A DNA stretch of 40,108 bases from a virus, in IMG/VR virus record IMGVR_UViG_3300020450_001067, positions 1 to 40,108 of that record; one strand, 5' to 3'. Shown piece by piece: positions 14,971 to 29,608 of this stretch (positions are counted from its first letter, which is position 1; the number at the start of each line of letters is the position of its first letter). The notes below the pieces were generated by a model, which was not told the origin of the DNA, made no database searches, and saw nothing but the letters and a program-made list of their open reading frames with translations. Made by a program: the position numbers and the translations under genes.

Positions 14971-17643
14971 TTACTCTCCAAAGTCAAATAAACTGTTAAA
15001 TGTATTTTTTTGTTTAGTGCTTTCTAAGTCATAACTTAAAACACCAATTAAATTTCCAAGTTTGTTATCAATAATTGTTTCTTCCATTGCATCACCATCA
15101 AAAGGAAGTTCTTTAAACCATTCTGGCAAATGCAATTCATCAGTTGGGTATGCAACACTTGTATATCCTAATGGATTCTTTTTAAGTTTACATACAACAA
15201 CCTTCATACCATCAACAATTTCCTGCGAGTATCTATCACCATTCATCTTTTTAAGTGTGTTCCAATTAATACTTGCTCTTACGTGTCCTGGCATATTTGC
15301 CTTACCTTGACGTTCTTCTAACTTTTGATAATGTCCAATCTTGTTTGCACGTTTAGGAGATCCTTTTTCATATCCTGGACGTTTCTTAAATTCTGTTCTA
15401 AATTCTGCAATAGAATCTAATATTTCTTTTTCTCCTTTTTCTTGTAATACCATAAGCAATAGTTCACTTAAAAAGTCTTGCATAAACACTGGAGTATCAG
15501 AACGTTTTAGATCAAGACCCATTGCTTTTACTTTGCCCGGCTTGCCTTCAATATCTTTTCTATTTCCTTCTTCATCATACACTAGTGCCGCATATCTTTT
15601 CTTTGTAATATACAATCCGCTTTCTGCTACAATTTCTCTACCTGCCGCAATTACTTCTGCTCTACTCTTAGGACAATGAAATGCATTATGCATAAACTTT
15701 TCAAATGTTGTGTTTGCTTCTTCACATACTCTATCATAAAGTTGTATAACACTTTCTTTAGTCCATGGAATTTGTCCTGCTTCAATTTCTTTTTTAAGTA
15801 TTGGAAATGCACTAAAGTACACGGAGTCTGTATCACCATATATAATACTTTTACCTACGTGATCATAATTTCCTGTTATTACTTTGTTCACTTCTGCCGC
15901 CATGTGTTTTGCAATGGCTCTACCTGTAAGTGTTGTACTTTGTCCAATACGTTTATCAAAGAATCTACAACCTGGATTAAGTATAGCACCATATAAACTA
16001 TTTAGGTTAATCTTCTTAACAAGTTGTCTCTTATCCCAAAATTCTATTTCTGCTTTGTTTTCTGCATCAATGGCTTTCTTTTTCATACCTTGCATTTCTT
16101 TACGTTCACTGTACCAACGTTTAAGTAATCCAGGAATAACACCTTCATGTTCATATGTAAAGATAGTACCATTAGCACTTAACATCCAAGGATTGTTACT
16201 ATCATGTATAACTTTGTAAATTTGTGCACCACTCATTACTTCTGACTCACCATTCTCAAAATCAACTGTAATGCTGACATCTCTACGTTGTTCCATTACT
16301 GCTTCATATTCTAGTGTGCCAAATTTTCCTTCCCATGCACCAGCAAATGATTTCTTTTTCAAACCCATTTGTTCTTGTATAAAGTTGTCTGTATGTTCCG
16401 GACGAAGTTGTCCTATAATAGTTTCTGGAGCCATGTTTAATGCTCTAATAACACTAGGATACAGACTGTTTAAGTCCATTGATCCTATCCACTTATGTAC
16501 TCCAATCTTAGGAAATGCAACATAGGCACCAGCCGCCGCAGTATTTTCATCATCACGTCTTGGTCTGTTAGGAACTTGTAAGCCACGTCTATGTGCTTCA
16601 TTCACAATGGCTTGTTCTGTAACTGCAACCGCACCCATTGTGGTCTGTAGCAAAACAGTGTTCGCGTGTGCTAGTTCATTTGAAAGATCAATGAACTTTA
16701 ATTTTTGGTCCAACTTGTCCAGTAGTGCAACGTCTTGTCTGTTGTACTCAATGAACGTTCTGAAGTCATTGTTATAAAGTTGATCGAGTGTACCTTCATA
16801 CACAGTTTTCTTTTCACCAACTTCCATTTCTCCAATGGCGTCAAGTCGATATGTGTGTCTTTCTTCATATGTGTATTTACGATATAATTCCAAACTATCT
16901 AAATGCACTCTACCTATTAGGTCATAGGTAACAAGTGTTCTTCCAAACTTTTCATATTCTCTTTTCTTAGGAAGTTGATCCCATAAACAAAAACGTCTTG
17001 TATCATTTTTACTCAATACTCTTGCAACACGATTTACACAATAAGGAATATCATAACCTTCACTGTTCCAACCAGATATAATATCTGCATCTTCAATTAA
17101 ATCTAAGAATGTTTTTAACATATCTGCTTCATCAGTAAACAGATGTGTGTTAGGAAAATCTTTTACTTGATCTTGTGCTTCTTCTAATGTCAGTGTCTTA
17201 GGAGGAACTGCAAGTGTTACTAAACTATCAAGCCACTGTAAGTGTACAGTGATTGCAGTAATTGGCATAAATGGATCTGCCGGATCCGCAAATCCTCTAT
17301 CTGGATCAAAGTCTGTTTCAATATCAAAGAATGCTATGTTTAGTTTTGGAGCATCATGATTTAGATAGTTTGTGCTCAAACATTGGAATATAGGATTGAT
17401 ATCGCTTTCAAACAGATCCTTGTTTTTGTTTATTGCTAATTCTTTTCTAAAATCTTTTGTATTTTTACAGGTAATTTTATTTAGAGGATCTCCATAGATG
17501 CTTTTGTATTTGCCTCTTTGGTCACCATAATAAAAAGTATATCTTACTGGATATTCTGTGTAGTGTCTTTTTCCATCTTCACGACGCTCTACTACCTGTA
17601 TCTGATCTGCTTCACGATTAAAAAATGCGTCTACGTAACTCAT
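14971..17643 (-). CDS. 43: Family B DNA polymerase (T4 gp43-like)
   Basis: Replicative polymerase, 890 residues. The 3'-5' exonuclease has FFDIETD (D107, E109), GWNSEGYDIP (191-200) and YNRQDVALL (D304). The polymerase motifs are A, SMDLNSLYPSVI (D390), B, KKINLNSLYGA (543-553), and C, IYGDTDSVYF (601-610). The tail ends TFNSLFDFGE, a clamp-binding peptide like that of T4/RB69 gp43. It works with the clamp at 11640-12371 and the clamp loader at 39195-40108. The leader holds two small hairpins (17661-17703) and an AGGAGAG ribosome site, suggesting translational control. All catalytic residues are present. Confidence 0.97.
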   Translation of the reverse strand: MSYVDAFFNREADQIQVVERREDGKRHYTEYPVRYTFYYGDQRGKYKSIYGDPLNKITCKNTKDFRKELAINKNKDLFESDINPIFQCLSTNYLNHDAPKLNIAFFDIETDFDPDRGFADPADPFMPITAITVHLQWLDSLVTLAVPPKTLTLEEAQDQVKDFPNTHLFTDEADMLKTFLDLIEDADIISGWNSEGYDIPYCVNRVARVLSKNDTRRFCLWDQLPKKREYEKFGRTLVTYDLIGRVHLDSLELYRKYTYEERHTYRLDAIGEMEVGEKKTVYEGTLDQLYNNDFRTFIEYNRQDVALLDKLDQKLKFIDLSNELAHANTVLLQTTMGAVAVTEQAIVNEAHRRGLQVPNRPRRDDENTAAAGAYVAFPKIGVHKWIGSMDLNSLYPSVIRALNMAPETIIGQLRPEHTDNFIQEQMGLKKKSFAGAWEGKFGTLEYEAVMEQRRDVSITVDFENGESEVMSGAQIYKVIHDSNNPWMLSANGTIFTYEHEGVIPGLLKRWYSERKEMQGMKKKAIDAENKAEIEFWDKRQLVKKINLNSLYGAILNPGCRFFDKRIGQSTTLTGRAIAKHMAAEVNKVITGNYDHVGKSIIYGDTDSVYFSAFPILKKEIEAGQIPWTKESVIQLYDRVCEEANTTFEKFMHNAFHCPKSRAEVIAAGREIVAESGLYITKKRYAALVYDEEGNRKDIEGKPGKVKAMGLDLKRSDTPVFMQDFLSELLLMVLQEKGEKEILDSIAEFRTEFKKRPGYEKGSPKRANKIGHYQKLEERQGKANMPGHVRASINWNTLKKMNGDRYSQEIVDGMKVVVCKLKKNPLGYTSVAYPTDELHLPEWFKELPFDGDAMEETIIDNKLGNLIGVLSYDLESTKQKNTFNSLFDFGE

Positions 17644-19654: not shown

Positions 19655-19829
19655 TTAATTTATTGTAGGCTTCCTCAAATCCTTCTAGATGTAACCATGC
19701 TTCTTCCATGTACCAAACACGTTTGAAATAACTTTCGTAACAATCTAAGATACAAGATTCTGTTGCGTTGAAATGACCTTTAACCATCCAAAAGATTCTG
19801 TATGCATCTTTCTTGTTAACTGGCTCCAC
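19635..19829 (-). CDS. Small hypothetical protein, start uncertain (about 64 aa)
   Basis: Unrecognised. A helical, aromatic-rich protein (DAYRIFWMVKGHF, YESYFKRVWYMEEAWLHLEGF). The GTG at 19829 is chosen because it keeps the overlap with the upstream gene to 14 bases; an ATG at 19862 and an internal ATG at 19784 are alternatives. None has a strong ribosome site. The 3' end overlaps the next start by 20 bases. Confidence 0.55.
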   Translation of the reverse strand: MEPVNKKDAYRIFWMVKGHFNATESCILDCYESYFKRVWYMEEAWLHLEGFEEAYNKLNENNIR

Positions 19830-20469
19830 CTTCTTCGTCCTTTGTCTTGTACTGCCATTCATCTGTGTGACCTACGGACCATTTAGGTGTGTTTTCAACA
19901 GTATAATTTTGTGTGCATACTTTGAAGTCTGGCGTCTTACGATCAGGGTGTACTAAACTTTGATCTGTGAATATTGTTCTATTATTAGGTTGTGCCGCAA
20001 ACTGACCATTATCTAATTTAATAAAATTAAATGATTTATGTTCAGGATCATGTTCAGAAAAGTTTTGATTTAAAACATTTTGATCTCTATGACAAGTATC
20101 TAGGCTAAACATATATTCACCTTTGTGCATTTTTTTATCTTTGCCAAAGAATTCACAATCGCATAATAGAGGTTTCTTTATTACTGTGATATCATAATCA
20201 AAGCAATCCCATATTTGTAAAGTATCTAAAGGAAGTTGATTATCTTTATCATAGTCCTCCTTCCAAACAAATGCAGACAAAGGTAATTTATCATATAATG
20301 CACCATATTCTGTAAGGAGTGTTTCTACGTATAATGCTTTACCCATTATACTTCTAATTGATATCCAAACGCCTGGAGTTAAATCTCCGTAACCTTTCTG
20401 AAGATCGTATAGATACTCTTTTTTTACATATACTTCTATAGGCGGTAAGTTATGTACTAAAAAGGCCAT
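19816..20469 (-). CDS. Hypothetical phage protein (217 aa)
   Basis: Unrecognised. The N-terminus (LVHNLPPIEVYVKKEYLYDL) is a distinctive block. The middle contains many Tyr, Asp and Cys residues (LCDCEFFGKDKKMHKGEY) and the end is acidic. The gene has an AAGGA ribosome site and lies after a variant late promoter box (20502-20509). It may be virion-associated, but only promoter type supports this. Confidence 0.78.
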   Translation of the reverse strand: MAFLVHNLPPIEVYVKKEYLYDLQKGYGDLTPGVWISIRSIMGKALYVETLLTEYGALYDKLPLSAFVWKEDYDKDNQLPLDTLQIWDCFDYDITVIKKPLLCDCEFFGKDKKMHKGEYMFSLDTCHRDQNVLNQNFSEHDPEHKSFNFIKLDNGQFAAQPNNRTIFTDQSLVHPDRKTPDFKVCTQNYTVENTPKWSVGHTDEWQYKTKDEEGGAS

Positions 20470-20501: not shown

Positions 20502-20509
20502 TATTTATT
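20502..20509 (-). promoter_or_regulatory. Possible late promoter (AATAAATA)
   Basis: On the minus strand, AATAAATAC lies 33 bases upstream of the ATG at 20469. It differs at one position from the GATAAATA box found at four other places and from T4 TATAAATA. It overlaps the stop codon of the small basic protein gene, so its function is less sure than the others. Confidence 0.4.
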
Positions 20510-20630
20510 ATTTTTTCTTTTTACGCCCTGCACAATGGGCCTTTTGAGAGAATCCTTTGGGATTAGAACAGTTGATACTTTTCTTATATTTTGCTGACCA
20601 CTTCTCTGGAATTATTTCCTTGGCCCTCAT
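20508..20630 (-). CDS. Small basic Cys-containing protein (40 aa)
   Basis: Starts with ATG at 20630 in an ATGA overlap with the upstream gene. The sequence is mostly Lys, Arg, Ser and Asn and contains INCSNPKGFSQKAHCAGRKK, a motif found as a C-terminal module in many marine T4-like phage proteins. Here it stands alone. The two cysteines and a histidine may bind metal; the basic tail may bind DNA. It ends the long tagged-protein unit. Confidence 0.65.
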   Translation of the reverse strand: MRAKEIIPEKWSAKYKKSINCSNPKGFSQKAHCAGRKKKK

Positions 20631-21553
20631 TTTGTTTTGACGTTCTTTGCTTTACCGCGTCTATTTTTGTTTGGATCTTCACGACGCTTACGACTTGCCG
20701 CTTTTTTACGGCCTTTTTTACCTAATGCGTATGCTTTTGCGGCTGGTAAACACTTTGGTTTACCTTCTTTGCTACTACCTCTAGCACATTGTCCTCTAAC
20801 TTTACCATCTGGACCAAAGCGAACCCACTTTTGTTTAAACCATTTTTTAAGGTTTTCATTTAATTCTACTTCTTCTGAAAATACTAAATTACCACACTTT
20901 ACACAATAATCTACGTGTTCACGTTTCACACAATTAGGTACACGTTTTCCGAACATGGTTTTCATGCCCTTCTTTTCGTAACCCTTCCAGCAACGTGTTC
21001 CTTCGGCTGTAATTTCGTAATTTTCTTTGTAATAAGGATTTTCAGGATCAGCATCACCTGATTCATCTGGCCACCAATCTAACTTGTAACGTTCGCCATT
21101 TGCAAACATTTTTTTCATAGAAATAATTCTGTTTTCGTATTCTTCTTTGACTGGCTCTACTCTACCTGCTTGTACATCTAAACAAAAATTAAGTGTAACT
21201 GCGTTTGCAGTAAGTGATCCACATCTTGCACCTACTTCATTTTTTAAATGATCTATAAGTATTGATCCAGAGCATTTTGCAAGTTCGTCTGATAAGTTTT
21301 CTGGTATTTCTAAGTCGATGTAAGAATAAACAAAGTCATAGTGTGGTTTAGGTGAACCGTGTAGTATGTATTCATCTCTACAAACTACTCTTTTGAATCC
21401 GTCTATATTATGCCATACTGTTTGTTCATTGGTAAACTCATGTGGTTTACCGAAGTGCTTTTCTAAATATTGTGAATATGATACTGCTTCTTTATGATCC
21501 CAGTTATCATAACTTACACTTTTCTCTTCTTCTCGGAATTCTTGATAACGCAT
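20627..21553 (-). CDS. Multi-module basic protein, possible internal head protein (308 aa)
   Basis: The N-terminus MRYQEFREEEKS resembles the short tag shared by neighbours. A folded region follows (about 10-135), then two Cys-rich modules: GTRCWKGYEKKGMKTMFGKR (185-204) and YCVKCGNLVF (216-225). The C-terminus is a Lys/Arg-rich module with CARGSSKEGKPKC and RKRREDPNKNRRGK, as in other marine phage proteins. DNA binding is inferred from charge. It may be packaged in the head; function is unknown. Confidence 0.8.
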   Translation of the reverse strand: MRYQEFREEEKSVSYDNWDHKEAVSYSQYLEKHFGKPHEFTNEQTVWHNIDGFKRVVCRDEYILHGSPKPHYDFVYSYIDLEIPENLSDELAKCSGSILIDHLKNEVGARCGSLTANAVTLNFCLDVQAGRVEPVKEEYENRIISMKKMFANGERYKLDWWPDESGDADPENPYYKENYEITAEGTRCWKGYEKKGMKTMFGKRVPNCVKREHVDYCVKCGNLVFSEEVELNENLKKWFKQKWVRFGPDGKVRGQCARGSSKEGKPKCLPAAKAYALGKKGRKKAASRKRREDPNKNRRGKAKNVKTK

Positions 21554-22488
21554 TACTTACTCTTGTTGCCCCAGTTCTTAGCACCCTTTTTTCTGCACTG
21601 AACTAAAGCACCAGAGGCGTAAGCACTTGGCCAAACTTTATATCTTGATTTTACTTTATGATAACAAGCATCTTTCTTTTCTGCTAGTTGGTCAAACTCT
21701 TCTTCTGTAATTGCTTTACCAACAGACTCTTCTAAAGAACTATATGATTCTTTTTTCTTTTTATTATGCTTGTCTTTGATTTTTCCAATTTCTTCTGCAC
21801 TAGCGCCTTTGCCTGCGGCACTTTGAATCTTTTTCATACCATCTTTACCGTACTTCTTTACACCTGCACGGTACATGATACCACTTTCATCTGTTTCTTG
21901 ATCTTTGCTTTCTTTCTTTGCCATCTTTGTTGCAGTGGCATACATTACTGCGTCAGCATCATCACCATAGCGATCTTTAAAGTCGCCTTTGGCTTTTTTC
22001 ATACCTTTGACGTACTTTTCTTTTTTCTTTTCTTCGCCTTTAGTTAATGAACGCTCAGTCTTTTTTTTAGAAAGGACTCGATTTAATTCTTCTGCTAATT
22101 CGTCTTTGTAGTCTATGGACTCTTTTTTATCTTTTTTTGCTTCTTTGTCCTTGATTGCTTTCTTCATTGGCTCTTTTTTATTGCCATCTTTGTCCATGTC
22201 TAAGAAGTCTGGTTTTGCTTTTGCTTCAGTTTGAACTTGTTCGAACTTTTGTTCGTAATCCATATGATGATATACACTGCTTAGGTAGTCACCTGCTTTT
22301 GTAATTTTAGATTGTACCCAACCTTCTAAACCTTCTTCTTCTGAAACACCTTTAAGCATTTCGTGAAGTTTAATTGCATACTTTCCTATTTTATATAATT
22401 CTGCACGAGCCATTTGCACTTCATGGTCTTTTTCAACCTTGTGTGCCAAATCTGCTAAACCTTCGTTTTTAAGTTCTTTCTCTTTCAT
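21553..22488 (-). CDS. Lysine-rich multi-module protein (311 aa)
   Basis: Unrecognised as an enzyme. Modules in order: a helical region (RAELYKIGKYAIKLHEML), a short motif DFLDMDKDGNKKEPM, a long Lys/Glu-rich linker, YGDDADAVMYATATKMAKK, GIMYRAGVKKYGKDGMKK, and a C-terminal CYHKVKSRYKVWPSAYASGA with a following CRKKGAKNW. Most of these short modules recur singly in marine T4-like phage proteins. Strong basic charge suggests DNA contact, perhaps inside the head. N-terminus MKEKELKNEGL is only a weak match to the tag. Confidence 0.8.
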   Translation of the reverse strand: MKEKELKNEGLADLAHKVEKDHEVQMARAELYKIGKYAIKLHEMLKGVSEEEGLEGWVQSKITKAGDYLSSVYHHMDYEQKFEQVQTEAKAKPDFLDMDKDGNKKEPMKKAIKDKEAKKDKKESIDYKDELAEELNRVLSKKKTERSLTKGEEKKKEKYVKGMKKAKGDFKDRYGDDADAVMYATATKMAKKESKDQETDESGIMYRAGVKKYGKDGMKKIQSAAGKGASAEEIGKIKDKHNKKKKESYSSLEESVGKAITEEEFDQLAEKKDACYHKVKSRYKVWPSAYASGALVQCRKKGAKNWGNKSK

Positions 22489-22496
22489 AACAGTAT

Positions 22497-23219
22497 TTAC
22501 CTCTTTTGAATGGTTCCGCCAAATAGACTTGCACCCTTCATATCTAATGCATTTACGGCCGTTCCTTTAGGAGTTTTCTTTTGATCTGCTTTAGGAACAC
22601 CCTTACCATCTTTTTTAACTTTTGCATAAGCAGTAATAGGATTCGCCACAGTTGCTATTGCACCTGCACTAGTGGCACCTGGTGTTGCCGCTTCATTCTT
22701 TACTGCTTTGATTTCATTACCACAACATTTGCATTTTTTTCCTATTTCTTCTGCCGTATGTTTGTCTCCACAACAGTCTCCGTTTGGATCACAACCGCAT
22801 GAAGCCTTTTTACCTTCTTCAATGCTTTGTGTTTGCATTTGTGGTTGTGCCTGTGCTTGTTTTTGAGCACCTGCTTCTGCTTGTTTTACAAGCATCATAA
22901 ATTTGTTTCTAAGTGTAGTATCTGCTAGTATTGTTGATAATTGTTTGGCGAATGGAGCAATTTGTTTAGATAAATTTCCTGTTAATGCACCGCCTGAGGC
23001 AAGTTTATCTAAGCCTTTAGCCATCATTCCACCAGTGCCTTTTCCACCCATTTTATTTGCGGCCATCTTAGCACCTTGTCCTACTTTTTGTGTATTAGGA
23101 GCAACTGCTTGTTTAACTGCACCAGCGGCCTGCTTAACTGCACCTGCCGCCTTTTGAGCACCGGTTTTAACCGCCGCTAATGGGTTTTCACGTACTGATG
23201 TTATTTCTCTTAGTCTCAT
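22497..23219 (-). CDS. Tagged Ala/Lys-rich protein with Cys cluster (240 aa)
   Basis: The N-terminal tag MRLREITS is the same as in the nucleotidyltransferase at 25098. An Ala/Lys/Gln repeat region follows (AAGAVKQAAGAVKQAV), then helices, a Gln-rich stretch and a compact Cys-rich site (SCGCDPNGDCCGDKH and KCKCCGNE) with seven cysteines and a histidine, likely zinc-binding. The end is SLFGGTIQKR. The composition suggests a virion-internal or DNA-associated protein; no enzymatic domain is visible. Confidence 0.78.
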   Translation of the reverse strand: MRLREITSVRENPLAAVKTGAQKAAGAVKQAAGAVKQAVAPNTQKVGQGAKMAANKMGGKGTGGMMAKGLDKLASGGALTGNLSKQIAPFAKQLSTILADTTLRNKFMMLVKQAEAGAQKQAQAQPQMQTQSIEEGKKASCGCDPNGDCCGDKHTAEEIGKKCKCCGNEIKAVKNEAATPGATSAGAIATVANPITAYAKVKKDGKGVPKADQKKTPKGTAVNALDMKGASLFGGTIQKR

Positions 23220-23223
23220 ACTA

Positions 23224-24684
23224 CTATTTACCTTTTTTCGCCTTACCTCTACGCATATTTAACTGCCATTGGGCCATACGTCGCCTCTCTCCTGAACTAG
23301 ATTTAGCAATTTTACTCAGTTGGCTTATGGATGCTTTCTTTGGTATTCCAACTCTCTTGCTAAGGCCTTTCCGCCCAGGCTTCTTACCGTCCGCAAAATT
23401 TTCGCTCATTATGTTTTCCAAGTATGTGTCTACCATTTTTACCAAAGCATACTCGTGATCTAGCAGACGTAGTGCATCGTATCTATGATGGCCGTTGACA
23501 ATACGTCCTTTGCGGTCAACAACTATAGGATTGTATTCATCTAATTTAATATCCTTATATTGTTTCGCTAGTTTGCTAAAGGACCTGTCCTTTTGTACTG
23601 GTACCATGAGAGCGATCTTCATCTTACCTAGTTTTCCGTCCACATCTTTTGAATGTATTTGTGGAGGTGGATTGCCTTTAGTAGGTTCTGGATCAAAGTT
23701 TGTATCTTGATAACCGTCAACGTTTTGTATATTATAACCTAAACGTCTTAAGTTCTTTACCATATGATTTTTTTCTTTGTCTCCTCCGAAAAAGTTCATT
23801 GCAATACTTGGGTCACCTGCATTTATATCATCTGGATTCATAGATTTTATGTTTGCTATGTTCTTTCCAACTTTAATAAAGTCATAATGACTGTCAGTAT
23901 CTACACTAAAAGTATTTTTCGGATTGGGTATTAAGTCGCCTTCGGTTGCTGGTTTTTCAAAGTACTGTTTAAGATTACTTGCAGTTCTCTCAAACTTATG
24001 ATCTTTATGTTTGAATCCAACACCTCCTGCACTTTCCCACTTCTTCACGTTTTGTCCAAAGTCATCAATAAGAATATTTGGAGTGCCATCTCTTTGTCTT
24101 GCGTATGCTTGTTTGTTTGCAGTTATGATAACCTTCTTAGGCGGAAATGCTTTTAAATATTTCTCTACCCAAGCACGTTTATCTGGTTCTGCTCTTGGAT
24201 CATCTGCTAAAGGCGCCGATAGAATATTATATTCACCTTTTATATCTTTAATGATTGATAATAACTTATCTGCGTTTTTAGTAGGTTTTAATTTAAGCCA
24301 AAAGTCTTCAGTATCTCTTACCTTTTGTAAACCTTTTTCTACATTTTTAATTTGAAACCACTTTTTAACTTTCATTAGTTTAGTCCATGCACCAAAGAAG
24401 TCAACTAACACACCATCCATATCAACATATATTTCAGATGCACTAGATAACTCTCTTACTCTAATTTCGTTTACTTTGCTTTCTGCTAAACCTAAATTAA
24501 ATAGAGTGTTTGGACTAGAATTTTTTCTTGCCTTTTTATTAAGTTCTGGTGGACGACCGTCCTTATCAACTTTGAAGCCAAACTTTCCTGCTTCAATAGG
24601 AATTTGATTTACGCCAACGTCAGGCGTGGTGTTAACACCTTTAACAATCCTACCACCATGCTCATATAGTTGACGTAATTTCAT
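23224..24684 (-). CDS. HAD phosphatase-ParB nuclease fusion with N-terminal tag (486 aa)
   Basis: Begins MKLRQLYEHGG, with LYE resembling a T4 prohead-protease cleavage site. A HAD domain spans about 84-235: VDMDGVLVDF (87-96) motif I, ILSAP motif II region and LIDDFG (205-210) motif IV, as in 5'(3')-deoxyribonucleotidases. A ParB-like domain covers about 355-425 with YNPIVVDRKGRIVNGHHRYD (384-403), the catalytic/CTP region. The C-terminus is a Lys/Arg-rich module (KRVGIPKKASISQ, RRRMAQWQLNMRRGK). A second tag-like IRVRELSS sits at 74-81, so two tagged genes may have fused. The specificity is unknown. Confidence 0.85.
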   Translation of the reverse strand: MKLRQLYEHGGRIVKGVNTTPDVGVNQIPIEAGKFGFKVDKDGRPPELNKKARKNSSPNTLFNLGLAESKVNEIRVRELSSASEIYVDMDGVLVDFFGAWTKLMKVKKWFQIKNVEKGLQKVRDTEDFWLKLKPTKNADKLLSIIKDIKGEYNILSAPLADDPRAEPDKRAWVEKYLKAFPPKKVIITANKQAYARQRDGTPNILIDDFGQNVKKWESAGGVGFKHKDHKFERTASNLKQYFEKPATEGDLIPNPKNTFSVDTDSHYDFIKVGKNIANIKSMNPDDINAGDPSIAMNFFGGDKEKNHMVKNLRRLGYNIQNVDGYQDTNFDPEPTKGNPPPQIHSKDVDGKLGKMKIALMVPVQKDRSFSKLAKQYKDIKLDEYNPIVVDRKGRIVNGHHRYDALRLLDHEYALVKMVDTYLENIMSENFADGKKPGRKGLSKRVGIPKKASISQLSKIAKSSSGERRRMAQWQLNMRRGKAKKGK

Positions 24685-24685
24685 T

Positions 24686-24880
24686 TTATTTTATTAACTC
24701 ACAGGTCTTTGCGTTGGCTGTAAGTTCTTCACCTTTTTTGTGTAACCATACATAAGAATAAACTATTTGTCCATCTTCTGCAACGGTACATTTTTTGCCT
24801 AGTTTAACACTTGGTGGTACAATGTGTCCACTACAAGATGCTAACATTAATCCTGTTAATAATATTGCTATTGTCTTCAT
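24686..24880 (-). CDS. Small lipoprotein (64 aa)
   Basis: N-terminal signal MKTIAILLTGLMLASC ends in a lipobox (LASC, C16), followed by a mature part of about 48 residues with two more cysteines. Probably anchored in the outer or inner membrane. It sits between the HAD-ParB gene and a tagged-module gene, with start overlap of four bases. It is not next to the spanin genes, so a lysis role is not indicated. Confidence 0.8.
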   Translation of the reverse strand: MKTIAILLTGLMLASCSGHIVPPSVKLGKKCTVAEDGQIVYSYVWLHKKGEELTANAKTCELIK

Positions 24881-25095
24881 TTTTTCCTTCCTCTAAAACC
24901 TGGAACGCCCTGCATATATGGTCTACCAAACCATAATTTAAACCACTCACTGTCACCTGGCTTTAAACCAAGTTGTCTTTCTTTTTGTTTGAGTGCAGTC
25001 GCAGTATGACTGATATTGATATCTTCAGCGGTAACCGGACGTGGTCCTTTATATTCTGGGATACCTGCTAATTTTTTTAAATCTGCGATATCCAT
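24877..25095 (-). CDS. Small module-type protein (72 aa)
   Basis: N-terminal MDIADLKKLAGIPEY may be a variant tag. The C-terminus has SEWFKLWFGRPYMQGVPGFR with a final GRKK, a module of unknown role common at ends of marine phage proteins. The gene abuts the nucleotidyltransferase gene and overlaps the lipoprotein start (ATGA). It is likely part of the same late set. Confidence 0.7.
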   Translation of the reverse strand: MDIADLKKLAGIPEYKGPRPVTAEDINISHTATALKQKERQLGLKPGDSEWFKLWFGRPYMQGVPGFRGRKK

Positions 25096-25097
25096 TT

Positions 25098-25991
25098 TTA
25101 CCTCGCTTTTCTTATTTCTGCTTTTAATCCTAAATTTTTAAACAAGTTGTATGCAGTTTGTACACTTGTTAATGCTTTCTTTATTTCATCTATATAGTCG
25201 GGATTATCCTCAACTTTACGCATAAACTTTTTAGCATTTATAGGATCAACAAAAAGTAAATTACCTGAGTATGCCGCTCCTGGTTTGTAGAAACTTAAAA
25301 AATGTTCTTTGCCATCTGTCCTAGCCGCAATCCAATCTAAAACTTTAAGTTTGTTTGGATCTTGCAGTTTAGGATCTGCATTGTCAACTTCTTTACTTTT
25401 AAAAATATTTAATTCTGTTACGTCTTCGTCTTTGCTACCAAGTATTGTTGATAAATTATCAAACATTTTCTTAGCATAAGGCTGTGCTGATTTAGTTACT
25501 CCTTTACTAAAAGCATCAAAGTCTTTATTTTGTACTGCTTGACGCATTTTACTTGCACTCATACCCGTGGCATCTTCCGCATCAGGGTTACGTGATAATC
25601 TTTCGAAACTTATTTCATCAAATTGGAAAAATCCATGTGCAGATTTTTGTCCGTTGTATTTTTCTAATAGTGATCCTAACTTATCCTCACCTTCAAAAAA
25701 CGTTACACTCTTATAACCTCTTGAATGTAATTCAGTTGCCGCGAACATTATATTTTTTGCAAGTTCTATCTTAATATCGGGAAAACTTTTTCTTGCCCAA
25801 TCTAATTTTTCATTTGGGTTTAGAGGATCTGTTGGAAGTTTTGCTGGTCTATCTGTTAAAAACAAAATAGCATCTCCAGGACCTTGTCTTACTGCTTCAA
25901 CTAAAAGTCCGTGACCAGTTGTTGCAGGATTTAATCTTCCTAATGCAAAACTGACACTTTTGTTCGGTGATGTTATTTCCCTTAAACGCAT
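25098..25991 (-). CDS. Tagged nucleotidyltransferase (HxGH superfamily, 297 aa)
   Basis: N-terminal tag MRLREITSPNKS is followed by the adenylyltransferase-type Rossmann start FALGRLNPATTGHG (15-28), where TGHG replaces HxGH. GMSASKMRQAV (about 142-152) matches the S-x-x-x-I-R motif of cytidylyl- and nicotinamide-nucleotide adenylyltransferases. The C-terminal ~100 residues are extra and could be a separate helical domain. The substrate may be NMN, a phosphorylated base or a lipid precursor. The tag suggests packaging in the head. Confidence 0.85.
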   Translation of the reverse strand: MRLREITSPNKSVSFALGRLNPATTGHGLLVEAVRQGPGDAILFLTDRPAKLPTDPLNPNEKLDWARKSFPDIKIELAKNIMFAATELHSRGYKSVTFFEGEDKLGSLLEKYNGQKSAHGFFQFDEISFERLSRNPDAEDATGMSASKMRQAVQNKDFDAFSKGVTKSAQPYAKKMFDNLSTILGSKDEDVTELNIFKSKEVDNADPKLQDPNKLKVLDWIAARTDGKEHFLSFYKPGAAYSGNLLFVDPINAKKFMRKVEDNPDYIDEIKKALTSVQTAYNLFKNLGLKAEIRKAR

Positions 25992-25992
25992 A

Positions 25993-26328
25993 CTAGTATT
26001 CGCCTTTTTTAACTTCTTCTAACTCTTCGTTATATATTTCTTGTATTAAAGCATCCTTATCTTCTTTTGTCAATAGTTCTGTTGGGGATTTGATAATATC
26101 GTATTTTTCACAATAGTGATGGATTGCTTTTTCTACCATTTCTTTGACACCTTCCATATTATGATCACCTTTATCATAACTGTCTTTTAATGATGCCATA
26201 CAAGGGAAGTACATCTTTCTATAGAACATTGGATCGTCACGCATATGACATTTAAGATCATCGATTATATCATAACCCATGTCTTCTTTTTTGTCAATGT
26301 CTATGTCGGTAAACTCTTTAAGTTTCAT
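25993..26328 (-). CDS. Tagged helical protein (111 aa)
   Basis: Starts MKLKEFTDIDID, a tag-like sequence. The body contains MFYRKMYFPCMASLKDSYDK and AIHHYCEKYDI, helical, with two cysteines, and ends EELEEVKKGEY. This body occurs in other marine phage proteins as a C-terminal module. No catalytic motif is visible. One base separates it from the neighbour on each side. Confidence 0.72.
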   Translation of the reverse strand: MKLKEFTDIDIDKKEDMGYDIIDDLKCHMRDDPMFYRKMYFPCMASLKDSYDKGDHNMEGVKEMVEKAIHHYCEKYDIIKSPTELLTKEDKDALIQEIYNEELEEVKKGEY

Positions 26329-26329
26329 C

Positions 26330-26689
26330 TTACCACTTTCTACAAGACCAATATCTTGCTTTTGTTCTAGGACCAGGATTATCGCAGTTGTGTCTTGCTC
26401 TAAATGATCTGCGTCTTGCTGGATTTGATTTTTTAATTTTCATATTTGGATCACCAAAGTTTACTTTTTTAACGTTTTTTGTCTTTGGATCCTTTACGTA
26501 AACCTTAAACTTCTTAACATCGCCTCTCATTGGCTTGCCTAGTTTAACTTTACGTCCTTGATACTCTGCTTCGTCAACTACATCATCTTCGTTGAACCAT
26601 AATTCACCGTATGCTTCATAGAAGTCATCACCGTCATATGTTTCTTCTTTGTATATTGACTCTGAAAGATATTCTTTAAATTTCTTCAT
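26330..26689 (-). CDS. Protein with T4-like capsid-targeting N-terminus (119 aa)
   Basis: MKKFKEYLSES closely resembles the T4 internal-protein targeting sequence (M-K-T-Y/F-x-E-F-x-x-E). LSE at residues 8-10 is a plausible prohead-protease site (L/I-x-E). A Tyr/Asp-rich segment precedes a strongly basic C-terminal module (SNPARRRSFRARHNC, KARYWSCRKW) seen in many marine phages. The chosen ATG at 26689 follows an AAGGGG ribosome site and a late promoter at 26713-26720; a longer frame upstream begins in the leader and is unlikely. It opens the tagged-protein unit. Confidence 0.8.
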   Translation of the reverse strand: MKKFKEYLSESIYKEETYDGDDFYEAYGELWFNEDDVVDEAEYQGRKVKLGKPMRGDVKKFKVYVKDPKTKNVKKVNFGDPNMKIKKSNPARRRSFRARHNCDNPGPRTKARYWSCRKW

Positions 26690-26712
26690 AGCGATATTCC
26701 CCTTATATAGAG

Positions 26713-26720
26713 TATTTATC
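26713..26720 (-). promoter_or_regulatory. Late promoter box GATAAATA
   Basis: Reads GATAAATAC on the minus strand, 23 bases upstream of the ATG at 26689, followed by a ribosome site. It matches T4 TATAAATA at seven of eight positions. No -35 element is present, as for promoters read by gp55. It should drive the tagged-protein unit 26689-20508. Confidence 0.75.
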
Positions 26721-27367: not shown

Positions 27368-29608
27368 CTATGCTTCTACAAGTTTTGTTTCTTTGACTTG
27401 TAAGTCTATTTTACCATCAGTTACGTTGATATGCAATTTGCCACCTTTTTTAAGATCACCAAACAATACCATTTTACTTAAATCTGTCTTGATTTCTTTA
27501 TCAATTACTCTTTGCAGTGGCCTTGCACCCATTTTAGCATCAAACCCTTTGTCAACTAGATAATCTATTGCTTGATCATCAATAGTAACATCAACATTTT
27601 TCTCAACAAGCATATTTTTCAATTCTAGTAAGAACTTACCAACAATTTTCATCATTATATTCTTCTCTAATTTACCAAATGCTATTACACCATCAAGCCT
27701 ATTTCTAAACTCTGGGGCAAAGTAACGTTTTAGTTCTGTGTCCTCGTAGCCAACATCTAGATCTTGATTGAAGCCGATCGCATTTTTCTCAGCCTGTTCT
27801 GCACCTAAGTTTGTGGTTAGGATTAATACTGAATTTCTTGCGTCGGCTTCTTTACCGTTGCTACCAGTAATTCTGCCATTATCCATAATTTGTAAAAGGA
27901 TAGTTGAAACATCTGGGTGTGCCTTTTCTACTTCATCAAGTAATAATACACAGTTAGGATGTTCTTGTAATTTTGTAATCAATAGTCCTGCATTTTCTTC
28001 ATATCCAACATATCCTGGAGGAGAACCAATCAGTTTTGCTACTGCGTGTTTCTCTTGATATTCAGACATATCAAATCTAACAAGTTTAACTGATAATTCT
28101 TCTGCAAGTCTTTTAGCAGTTTCAGTTTTACCTACTCCTGTTGGACCCATAAACACAAAAGAACCTATAGGCTTGTTATCTACTTTAAGTCCTGCTTGAG
28201 CAACAAGTATTTTCTCTACAATCTCATCAATTGCTTTCTCTTGTCCAAACACAACCTTTTTAAGATTCTTATCAAGGTTAGCCAAGTTACTTGTTTCTTT
28301 TTGTTGTACTTGTTCTGGCGGAAGTTTAACTGCTTTTGCAAGTTCAAATTGTATTTCTTCTGCATCTACAATTTTTTCGCCTTCAACTTTCTTTAATTTA
28401 AATCTAGCACAGGCCAAATCAATTAAGTCAATTGCTTTATCCGGAAGTTTCTTATCACTTTGATACTTCACTGAAAGTTTAATTGCGTTATGTAATGCAT
28501 CTTCAGTGATGTTTACTGCATGATAATCTTCATAATACTTCTTAATGCCTTTGAGAATATCTAGTGTAACTTCATTTGTAGGTTCATCAACACTTATTCT
28601 TTGGAATCTACGCATTAATGCCCTGTCTTTTTCAAAATACTTTCTATATTCTTCCCAAGTTGTAGAAGCGATAACTTTAATGTCACCTTTACCTAATGCT
28701 GGTTTCAACATATTAGCAAGATCTGTTGAACTATTTTGTCCGCCTGCACCTGCACCACTTATCATATGTGCTTCATCTATAAACACAATAGTTTTACCTT
28801 GTTTTTTAATACCCGCCATTACTAATTTAAAACGTTCTTCAAAGTCACCTCTGTATTTAGAACCAGCCAACATAGCACTTATGTCTAAGTTGTAAACTTT
28901 GTATTCTTGTAAAAATTCTGGAACTGCTTTATTAACAATATTAAATGCTAAACCTTCTGCAATAGCAGTTTTACCAACGCCTGGATCACCTACTAATAAC
29001 ACGTTGCTCTTTTGTCTACGTCCTAATGCTAATGCAATAGATTCTAATTCTTCATTACGTCCAATTACTGGATCAATCTTGTTAGATGTAACTTCTTTGT
29101 TTAAATCTGAAGTATATTCTCTTAAGGCTCTTAAGGCAATACCTCTCAATTCTTCATCTTCGTATTGTGTATCAATTTCGCTACTAATATATTCAGCAAA
29201 CTTTTCTTTTTCCACACCCGACTTGGTCATATGATAGTATGCCCAAGATTTTTTCTCATTCAATACACTAATGAATACGTCTGTAATTTCTATTAAATGC
29301 CTACCACTAAACAAAACCTGCGTAAATGCTCTATTCAAAACTCTTTCAACAGTAGCAGTCTTTTTAGGTTTAAATTTTGTAGCAGTTGTTTTCAAATCCT
29401 CACAGTCTGGACCTTTTAAATATGCTTCGAGGCCAGTTTTCATTGCTTTGACATCAACACCATAACCGTCAACTATCTTTTCAAAGTTGTCTACACACAA
29501 CATTGCATAGACCATATGCTCCAAAGTAACGTATTCGTGTTTTAATTTCTTAGCATCACCTAATGCTTTATCAAAAACTAATTGCAATCCTTCACTTGGT
29601 TCTACCAT
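27368..29608 (-). CDS. ClpA-like AAA+ unfoldase
   Basis: 746 residues, length and order of bacterial ClpA. The N-terminal Clp repeats (1-140) precede D1, with Walker A GDPGVGKT (207-214) and Walker B FIDEAHM (276-282). D2 has Walker A GPTGVGKT (488-495) and LLLDEVEKAHP (555-565). The long middle coiled coil of ClpB is absent. Between D2 helices, IGF (611-613) occupies the position of the IGL loop that docks ClpP. The inference is that it unfolds proteins and feeds host ClpP, since no ClpP is in the window. The start overlaps the deformylase end by seven bases. Confidence 0.93.
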   Translation of the reverse strand: MVEPSEGLQLVFDKALGDAKKLKHEYVTLEHMVYAMLCVDNFEKIVDGYGVDVKAMKTGLEAYLKGPDCEDLKTTATKFKPKKTATVERVLNRAFTQVLFSGRHLIEITDVFISVLNEKKSWAYYHMTKSGVEKEKFAEYISSEIDTQYEDEELRGIALRALREYTSDLNKEVTSNKIDPVIGRNEELESIALALGRRQKSNVLLVGDPGVGKTAIAEGLAFNIVNKAVPEFLQEYKVYNLDISAMLAGSKYRGDFEERFKLVMAGIKKQGKTIVFIDEAHMISGAGAGGQNSSTDLANMLKPALGKGDIKVIASTTWEEYRKYFEKDRALMRRFQRISVDEPTNEVTLDILKGIKKYYEDYHAVNITEDALHNAIKLSVKYQSDKKLPDKAIDLIDLACARFKLKKVEGEKIVDAEEIQFELAKAVKLPPEQVQQKETSNLANLDKNLKKVVFGQEKAIDEIVEKILVAQAGLKVDNKPIGSFVFMGPTGVGKTETAKRLAEELSVKLVRFDMSEYQEKHAVAKLIGSPPGYVGYEENAGLLITKLQEHPNCVLLLDEVEKAHPDVSTILLQIMDNGRITGSNGKEADARNSVLILTTNLGAEQAEKNAIGFNQDLDVGYEDTELKRYFAPEFRNRLDGVIAFGKLEKNIMMKIVGKFLLELKNMLVEKNVDVTIDDQAIDYLVDKGFDAKMGARPLQRVIDKEIKTDLSKMVLFGDLKKGGKLHINVTDGKIDLQVKETKLVEA

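Follow-up and report, generated by a model that had tools for sequence, protein, structure and literature searches.

A late transcription unit of an uncultured marine phage encodes proteins, several of them enzymes, that appear to be packed into the phage head. The unit occupies positions 20,508 to 26,720 on the minus strand of a 40,108-base virus record (IMGVR_UViG_3300020450_001067), a fragment of a T4-like phage that was analysed over its full length and is referred to here as the window. Most of its proteins begin with a short peptide (the tag) similar to the capsid-targeting sequence (CTS) of T4 internal proteins (IPs). We consider it very probable that the unit proteins are targeted to the head by a CTS-type propeptide. 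The unit is best read as a modular capsid-loading cassette, a variant of the T4 CTS and IP system, and the heads of marine phages probably carry finished enzymes as cargo. Although T4-like phages abound in the sea, the contents of their heads besides DNA are almost unknown; studies of cyanophage virions have kept finding enzymes, for which cargo and contamination were undecidable. A cleavable tag provides a testable sequence rule that predicts cargo proteins.

All six N-termini named in the original prediction were found in the window (Table 1), and two tagged genes can be added to these, starting with MKEKELKNEG (21553-22488) and MRAKEIIPEK (20508-20630). The core M[KR]xx[EQ][FILYVM] is present in 7 of the 10 genes of the unit, against 1 of the remaining 56 genes on the minus strand (Fisher p=1.2e-6). 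An eighth tag, MKKFKEYLSE/S (26330-26689; a slash after Glu marks the predicted cut), lies outside this short pattern and matches the T4 CTS MKTYQEFIAE/A in register, including L-x-E, which bears out the proposed likeness to the T4 IP tag. It requires a start at ATG 26689, which is favoured over GTG 26722 because the late promoter falls between both starts. Two possible L-x-E sites had been claimed; the motif is indeed present, but in its strict [LI]xE form it occurs in three tags, LSE (26330), LYE (23224) and IPE (20508), with H and K after the cut in 23224 and 20508, respectively. Exceptions in the unit are 24686-24880 and 24877-25095 (starting MDIADLKKLAGI) and, for the cleavage site, 25993-26328. 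The unit proteins have a higher pI (isoelectric point) than those of the remaining genes (p=7.5e-4), and their last 35 residues are more basic (p=4.5e-4), in agreement with the basic C-termini described earlier. The unit opens with the late promoter GATAAATA at 26713-26719 and ends at the next one, at 20502-20508; given this placement, with 24 nt separating the first copy from the tagged gene that follows, the postulated single late promoter is well supported. The exact T4 late promoter TATAAATA is not present upstream of the unit, where the GATAAATA form is found.

Relatives were represented by 92 IMG/VR loci related to the cytidylyltransferase and HAD-ParB genes of the unit, in which genes were predicted with a simple gene caller and then clustered; the region flanked by the ClpB/structural genes on one side and by the ferredoxin-like gene on the other was taken as the unit. 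Counts in these relatives are approximate, as start sites are predicted and families are joined by common modules, yet the contrast is still large: [LI]xE with the Glu at residue 6-12 occurs in 197 of 396 unit proteins (50%) versus 49 of 967 others (5%), or 42% versus 7.5% by family mean (internal background 5% and 9%). The Glu position profile of the unit has its maxima at Glu5 and Glu8 and drops almost to zero beyond residue 14, save for a small rise near residue 23; that of the other families is flat at approximately 1%. The short-register consensus is M-[KR]-[LIFV]-[RK]-[EQD]-[LI]-x-E, followed mostly by A, G, N, D or S, and T4-register tags (e.g. MKTFQEYLKE/AG) share cassettes with it. 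Chance similarity of the N-termini is ruled out by the core statistics in the window and by the [LI]xE contrast in relatives.

In dozens of related contigs, unit proteins that are not homologous to each other carry the tag with its gp21-type motif, which is seldom seen in other parts of those contigs. Antisense artefacts aside, cassette proteins are the only ones in which bodies with no detectable similarity start with the same eight residues: in the window, the cytidylyltransferase and the 22497-type protein both have MRLREITS; MRLRQLYE is common to HAD-ParB and a cytidylyltransferase, and MLLRELYE to two nucleotidyltransferases. In related contig G015, the homologue of 20627-21553 shows 80% identity beginning at residue 8, yet the start MHLRELIKIVE replaces MRYQEFRE. 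The tag can also be joined directly to single modules that elsewhere form C-terminal domains, as in MRITDVITE/KCWKGYEKKG, MRIFEITE/NFADGKKKG and MRATEFITE/KWSKKYKDSINCSNPKGF. Homologous tagged proteins (MKVHQIISE/S, MKINQIVTE/T) were also observed outside the cassette, near head genes (G001:9103-9744, G002:30271-30867, G003:109803-110318).

A Peptidase_S77 of the gp21 type is encoded in four of the longest, near-complete related contigs (G002, G003, G015 and G016). In relatives with the protease, the capsid protein is predicted to be cut at RKWLNE/TA, RKYLAE/AA or KKYLSE/QA, and further predicted capsid maturation sites at the same motif read FLSE/A, FLAE/A and LLTE/A. In Melnitz, FLSE/A is both the capsid protein site and the site of a cassette tag (MQGFKTFLSE/A). 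In T4, the gp21 motif is L/I-x-E, propeptides range from 7 to 65 residues, and the targeting residues of the IPIII tag are 4 and 7 (PMC9026906); aromatic or hydrophobic residues occupy these positions in 26330 (F4, Y7) and in the tags of cultured relatives. As for IPI, IPII, IPIII and Alt of T4, the unit combines late genes, basic bodies and a putative propeptide at the extreme N-terminus, in part of the tags ending in L/I-x-E, that alone is common to non-homologous bodies, with a T4-type S77 protease found here in relatives of the window phage. Unlike in the T4 system, most tags are two residues shorter and carry R/K at position 4, and the payloads consist of multi-domain enzymes together with shuffled modules, a copy of the capsid protein arm being present in some. 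The bodies showed no homology to IPs or Alt.

Published mass spectrometry has detected homologues in virions purified from cultured relatives. For S-SM1, the virion proteins include the citidylyltransferase T4-GC190 (PMC3037559), the N-terminus of which reads MKKFSAFLNE/A. In S-CREM2 virions, mass spectrometry identified a cytidylyltransferase and a SAM (S-adenosylmethionine, S-AdoMet)-degrading enzyme, as well as one kinase-like and several hypothetical proteins (PMC10665884). A T4-register pattern, set after part of the S-CREM2 sequences was already known, matches 6 of 219 S-CREM2 proteins, 5 of which are on the virion list (p=0.003): MKDFDSFLEE (S-AdoMet lyase), MKDLHSFLTE, MKRFDAFLTE (kinase-like), MQTFSMFFSE and MKNFSSFLTE (cytidylyltransferase). 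S-SCSM1, examined later, is the cleaner check: the single T4-register match among 71 genes (50 kb) is the NMNAT (MKSFLQFLKE/A), which is annotated as a virion protein, as are the neighbouring genes 89, 90, 92 and 93. The NMNAT of S-CBWM1, also cited as a virion protein, is without a tag; S-CBWM1 is not classed with Kyanoviridae. The virion enzymes of S-SM1, S-SCSM1 and S-CREM2 (T4-GC190) are homologous to the window enzyme and belong to a comparable cassette, whereas the tag of the window enzyme is of the short register and its cleavage site is degenerate. These virion studies report presence, and none of them names a targeting sequence. The original suggestion that the unit proteins are carried in the head thus gains support from the recurrence of the tag, from the protease and capsid site of relatives, and from the homologues in virions. 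The virion-detected S-AdoMet lyase of S-CREM2 (gp6, L136:3837-5081), with its T4-register tag, would fit an injected anti-restriction enzyme.

Among the tag bearers, the nucleotidyltransferase identified earlier was recovered with phrog_3041 (E=3e-33); sequences of solved structures gave no match to this 25098-25991 cytidylyltransferase. The HAD-ParB fusion likewise holds. Its HAD domain scores 33.5 bits with PF06941 (cut-off 24.8), the VDMDGV and IDD motifs are invariant and the best solved-structure matches are cdN/mdN, placing it with the 5'(3')-deoxyribonucleotidases (NT5C, HAD superfamily) by profile, DxDG and DD motifs, and fold. For the ParB-like call, PHROG profiles and the NGHHRYDA motif are the main grounds, because ParB matches in the fold search have low whole-chain TM-scores. 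In the model of this protein, the tag region has a pLDDT of approximately 33 and both domains are near 88. A search of related phages for the tag on other enzymes, as originally suggested, found for example a Fe/Mn superoxide dismutase starting MKIRQLFE/A or MKIRQIFE/A (L090:9438-9983, L145:1333-1881), so that a head-borne superoxide dismutase is possible in relatives. Pfam and PHROGs searches with nine other tagged bodies returned superoxide dismutase, one weak cytidylyltransferase-like match and one marginal, sub-cut-off match to a domain of unknown function, and the AlphaFold2 model of the 20627-21553 product had a mean pLDDT of 42, too low to be usable. Such payloads could plausibly restore or remodel pools of nucleotides and nicotinamide adenine dinucleotide (NAD), and counter defence at entry.

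The 22497-23219 product additionally contains E/AATPGATSAGAIATVANP (22638-22694), a mimic of the N-terminal arm of relatives' capsid proteins after the predicted cut (E/TATAGSTSAGNVATLNR and similar). This arm segment was found in 36 distinct cassette sequences, with a Glu nearly always immediately before it; its other location in whole genomes of relatives was the capsid protein. The tag cleavage site adjoins the arm segment in several short proteins (MLIRELINE/IATAGSTSAGSIAT). A cyanophage counterpart, of other sequence and matched to the phages' own capsid proteins, is present in the phrog_696/T4-GC426 family (S-ShM2 VGTGGFSGSSAATGPVAGFDP) and also in S-CREM2 gp160 and S-SCSM1 open reading frame (ORF) 97, both virion-listed. 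The mimics align better with capsid proteins of their own lineage. The phrog_696 'major head protein' and the 22497-23219 product are alike in sharing a 20-30 residue segment with the mature capsid N-terminus, and differ in that the segment sequence is lineage-specific and, in the window lineage, sits in a tagged protein. Phrog_696 proteins (e.g. L132:13129-13989) are not capsid proteins, with which they have only the mature N-terminal segment in common, and the PHROG name therefore looks misannotated. The arm mimic may dock proteins on the inner shell, which suggests a second loading or anchoring route; no description of one was found in the literature searched. As a separate observation, the N-terminus of 24877-25095 is similar to the very end of the gp22 scaffold (C-terminal ..VDIRRLAGLN) in G002, G003 and G015. 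A gp22-like motif also directly precedes the capsid-arm mimic in some proteins (EMKALAGIKEVATAGATSAG), and is possibly a scaffold-binding signal.

We propose that the late transcription unit makes proteins that would be loaded into the prohead. A propeptide in the T4 register (M-K-x-F-x-x-F/Y-L-x-E) or a shortened one (M-x-L/I-R/K-E/Q-L/I-x-E) would bring the protein into the scaffold core, and the gp21 T4-type prohead protease would then remove it after [LI]xE, in the same way as from the major capsid protein. The basic bodies set free by this cut would stay with the DNA in the head, some members possibly docking on the inner shell by their copy of the mature capsid arm, and on infection the proteins would accompany the DNA into the cell and act ahead of phage gene expression, in nucleotide and NAD metabolism or counter-defence. 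More tentatively, marine T4-like phages might possess a two-signal modular payload system, in which a swapped cleavable tag is combined with a lineage-matched capsid-arm copy, placed in the register of the capsid cut so that cleaved payloads would start like the capsid protein and dock on the shell, to deliver NMNAT-like, nucleotidase-ParB, superoxide dismutase, S-AdoMet lyase and kinase proteins at infection. Alternatively, the proteins could serve in head assembly, as accessories of the core or shell comparable to T4 gp67, gp68 and IPIII, and would then be targeted and cleaved likewise but act in morphogenesis only. The small basic modules, the capsid-arm mimics and the scaffold-like LAG motif would fit such a role, and T4 IPIII influences head shape (PMC9026906). 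However, there are several enzymes among the members, and their catalytic motifs are conserved (HAD with invariant DxDG and DD, nucleotidyltransferase, Fe/Mn superoxide dismutase, the S-AdoMet lyase of S-CREM2), and cassette composition differs strongly among phages, such that an exclusive assembly role seems rather unlikely. Since it is possible, injection of cassette proteins as effectors, although likely, is less certain than head targeting.

Several observations weigh against head loading by a CTS-type propeptide. In the 40 kb window, which is a fragment, genes for a prohead protease, a scaffold or a capsid protein were not recognised, and for this reason these were looked for in relatives. 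Canonical [LI]xE is not present in the tags of 25098 and 25993, for which the claim is consequently weaker, and 22497, 20627 and 21553 fit loosely. Short-register tags carry hydrophobic residues at 3 and 6 in place of the 4 and 7 of T4, with a length within the T4 range. The S-CREM2 comparison suffers from the late definition of its pattern, and the authors of the cyanophage virion lists themselves warn that abundant proteins may co-purify. By extension of this warning, the unit proteins could be late, highly expressed proteins co-purifying with virions, their common N-terminus being fortuitous or serving another purpose. A T4-like cleavable tag on unrelated bodies, rare outside the unit, is not expected in that case, and T4-register tags predict virion presence in S-CREM2; as the tag is cleavable, co-purification is less likely for tagged proteins, and we consider it improbable for the unit. 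That the conserved start, located at the start codon of co-transcribed genes, instead acts at the level of RNA or translation, as an initiation region or RegA-type operator, is hardly credible and ruled out by codon diversity, with MFLRELFE encoded by 14 different DNA 24-mers (five Arg codons at position 4) and the two MRLREITS copies of the window differing at 4 of 24 nt, all four synonymous, indicating that the peptide is what selection keeps.

If head loading by a cleavable propeptide is true, many "hypothetical" marine phage genes would become predicted injected effectors, some of them perhaps acting before host defences. A partial literature search turned up general mentions of the CTS idea for T4-like phages and, for capsid targeting in cyanophages, a single T4 review, and novelty is thus provisional.

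Nearly all window genes lie on the minus strand. PHROG matches include a DNA polymerase (14971-17643), a ferredoxin-like gene (19816-20469), a ClpB-like ATPase (27368-29608) and virion structural genes. DNA and protein matches of the window are to cyanophages, pelagiphages and methylophages, several annotated as Kyanoviridae.

Table 1 Features of the late unit in the window; a slash after Glu marks the predicted cut.
Feature	Position	Strand	Remarks
Late promoter core ATAAATA (gATAAATA)	26713..26719	-	24 nt upstream of first tagged gene
119 aa basic protein	26330..26689	-	Tag MKKFKEYLSE/S 26660-26689, T4 CTS register; C-terminal ARRRSFRARHNC..YWSCRKW module; phrog_7595
111 aa acidic protein	25993..26328	-	Tag-like MKLKEFTD without [LI]xE; weakest member
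Cytidylyltransferase/NMNAT-like enzyme	25098..25991	-	Tag MRLREITS 25968-25991; cleavage Glu lost, kept in homologues (MFLRELFE/AP)
72 aa protein	24877..25095	-	N-terminus MDIADLKKLAGI resembles C-terminus of relatives' scaffold gp22 (DIRRLAGL)
64 aa lipoprotein-like protein, MKTIAILLTGLMLASCSG	24686..24880	-	Without tag, inside late unit
HAD (5'(3')-deoxyribonucleotidase-like) + ParB-like fold + basic C-terminal module	23224..24684	-	Tag MKLRQLYE/H 24661-24684
240 aa basic protein	22497..23219	-	Tag MRLREITSVRE/N 23187-23219
Capsid-protein N-arm mimic EAATPGATSAGAIATVANP	22638..22694	-	Residues 176-194 of 22497-23219 product
311 aa basic protein	21553..22488	-	Tag MKEKELKNE/G 22462-22488; C-terminal module ACYHKVKSRYKVWPSAYASGALVQCRKKGAKNWG 21556-21672
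308 aa basic protein	20627..21553	-	Tag MRYQEFRE 21530-21553; RCWKGYEKKG and C-terminal K/R-rich modules
40 aa protein	20508..20630	-	Consists of tag MRAKEIIPE/K 20604-20630 and CSNPKGFSQKAHCAGRKKKK module
Next late promoter	20502..20508	-	End of unit

Across the 40 kb, ATAAATA occurs 6 times against approximately 22 expected. All 6 copies are on the coding strand, and 5 of the 6 sit 6-33 nt upstream of a start codon. This strong depletion and strand restriction reads as a clean late-promoter map of the phage. CTS-like peptides were also seen at the C-termini of the virion-listed proteins S-SCSM1 ORF93 (L246:41626-41835) and S-CREM2 gp12 (L136:7704-10313); these peptides (KKRTFKEFLEYIE and PKTFRDFLN) recall the C-terminal processing of T4 Alt.

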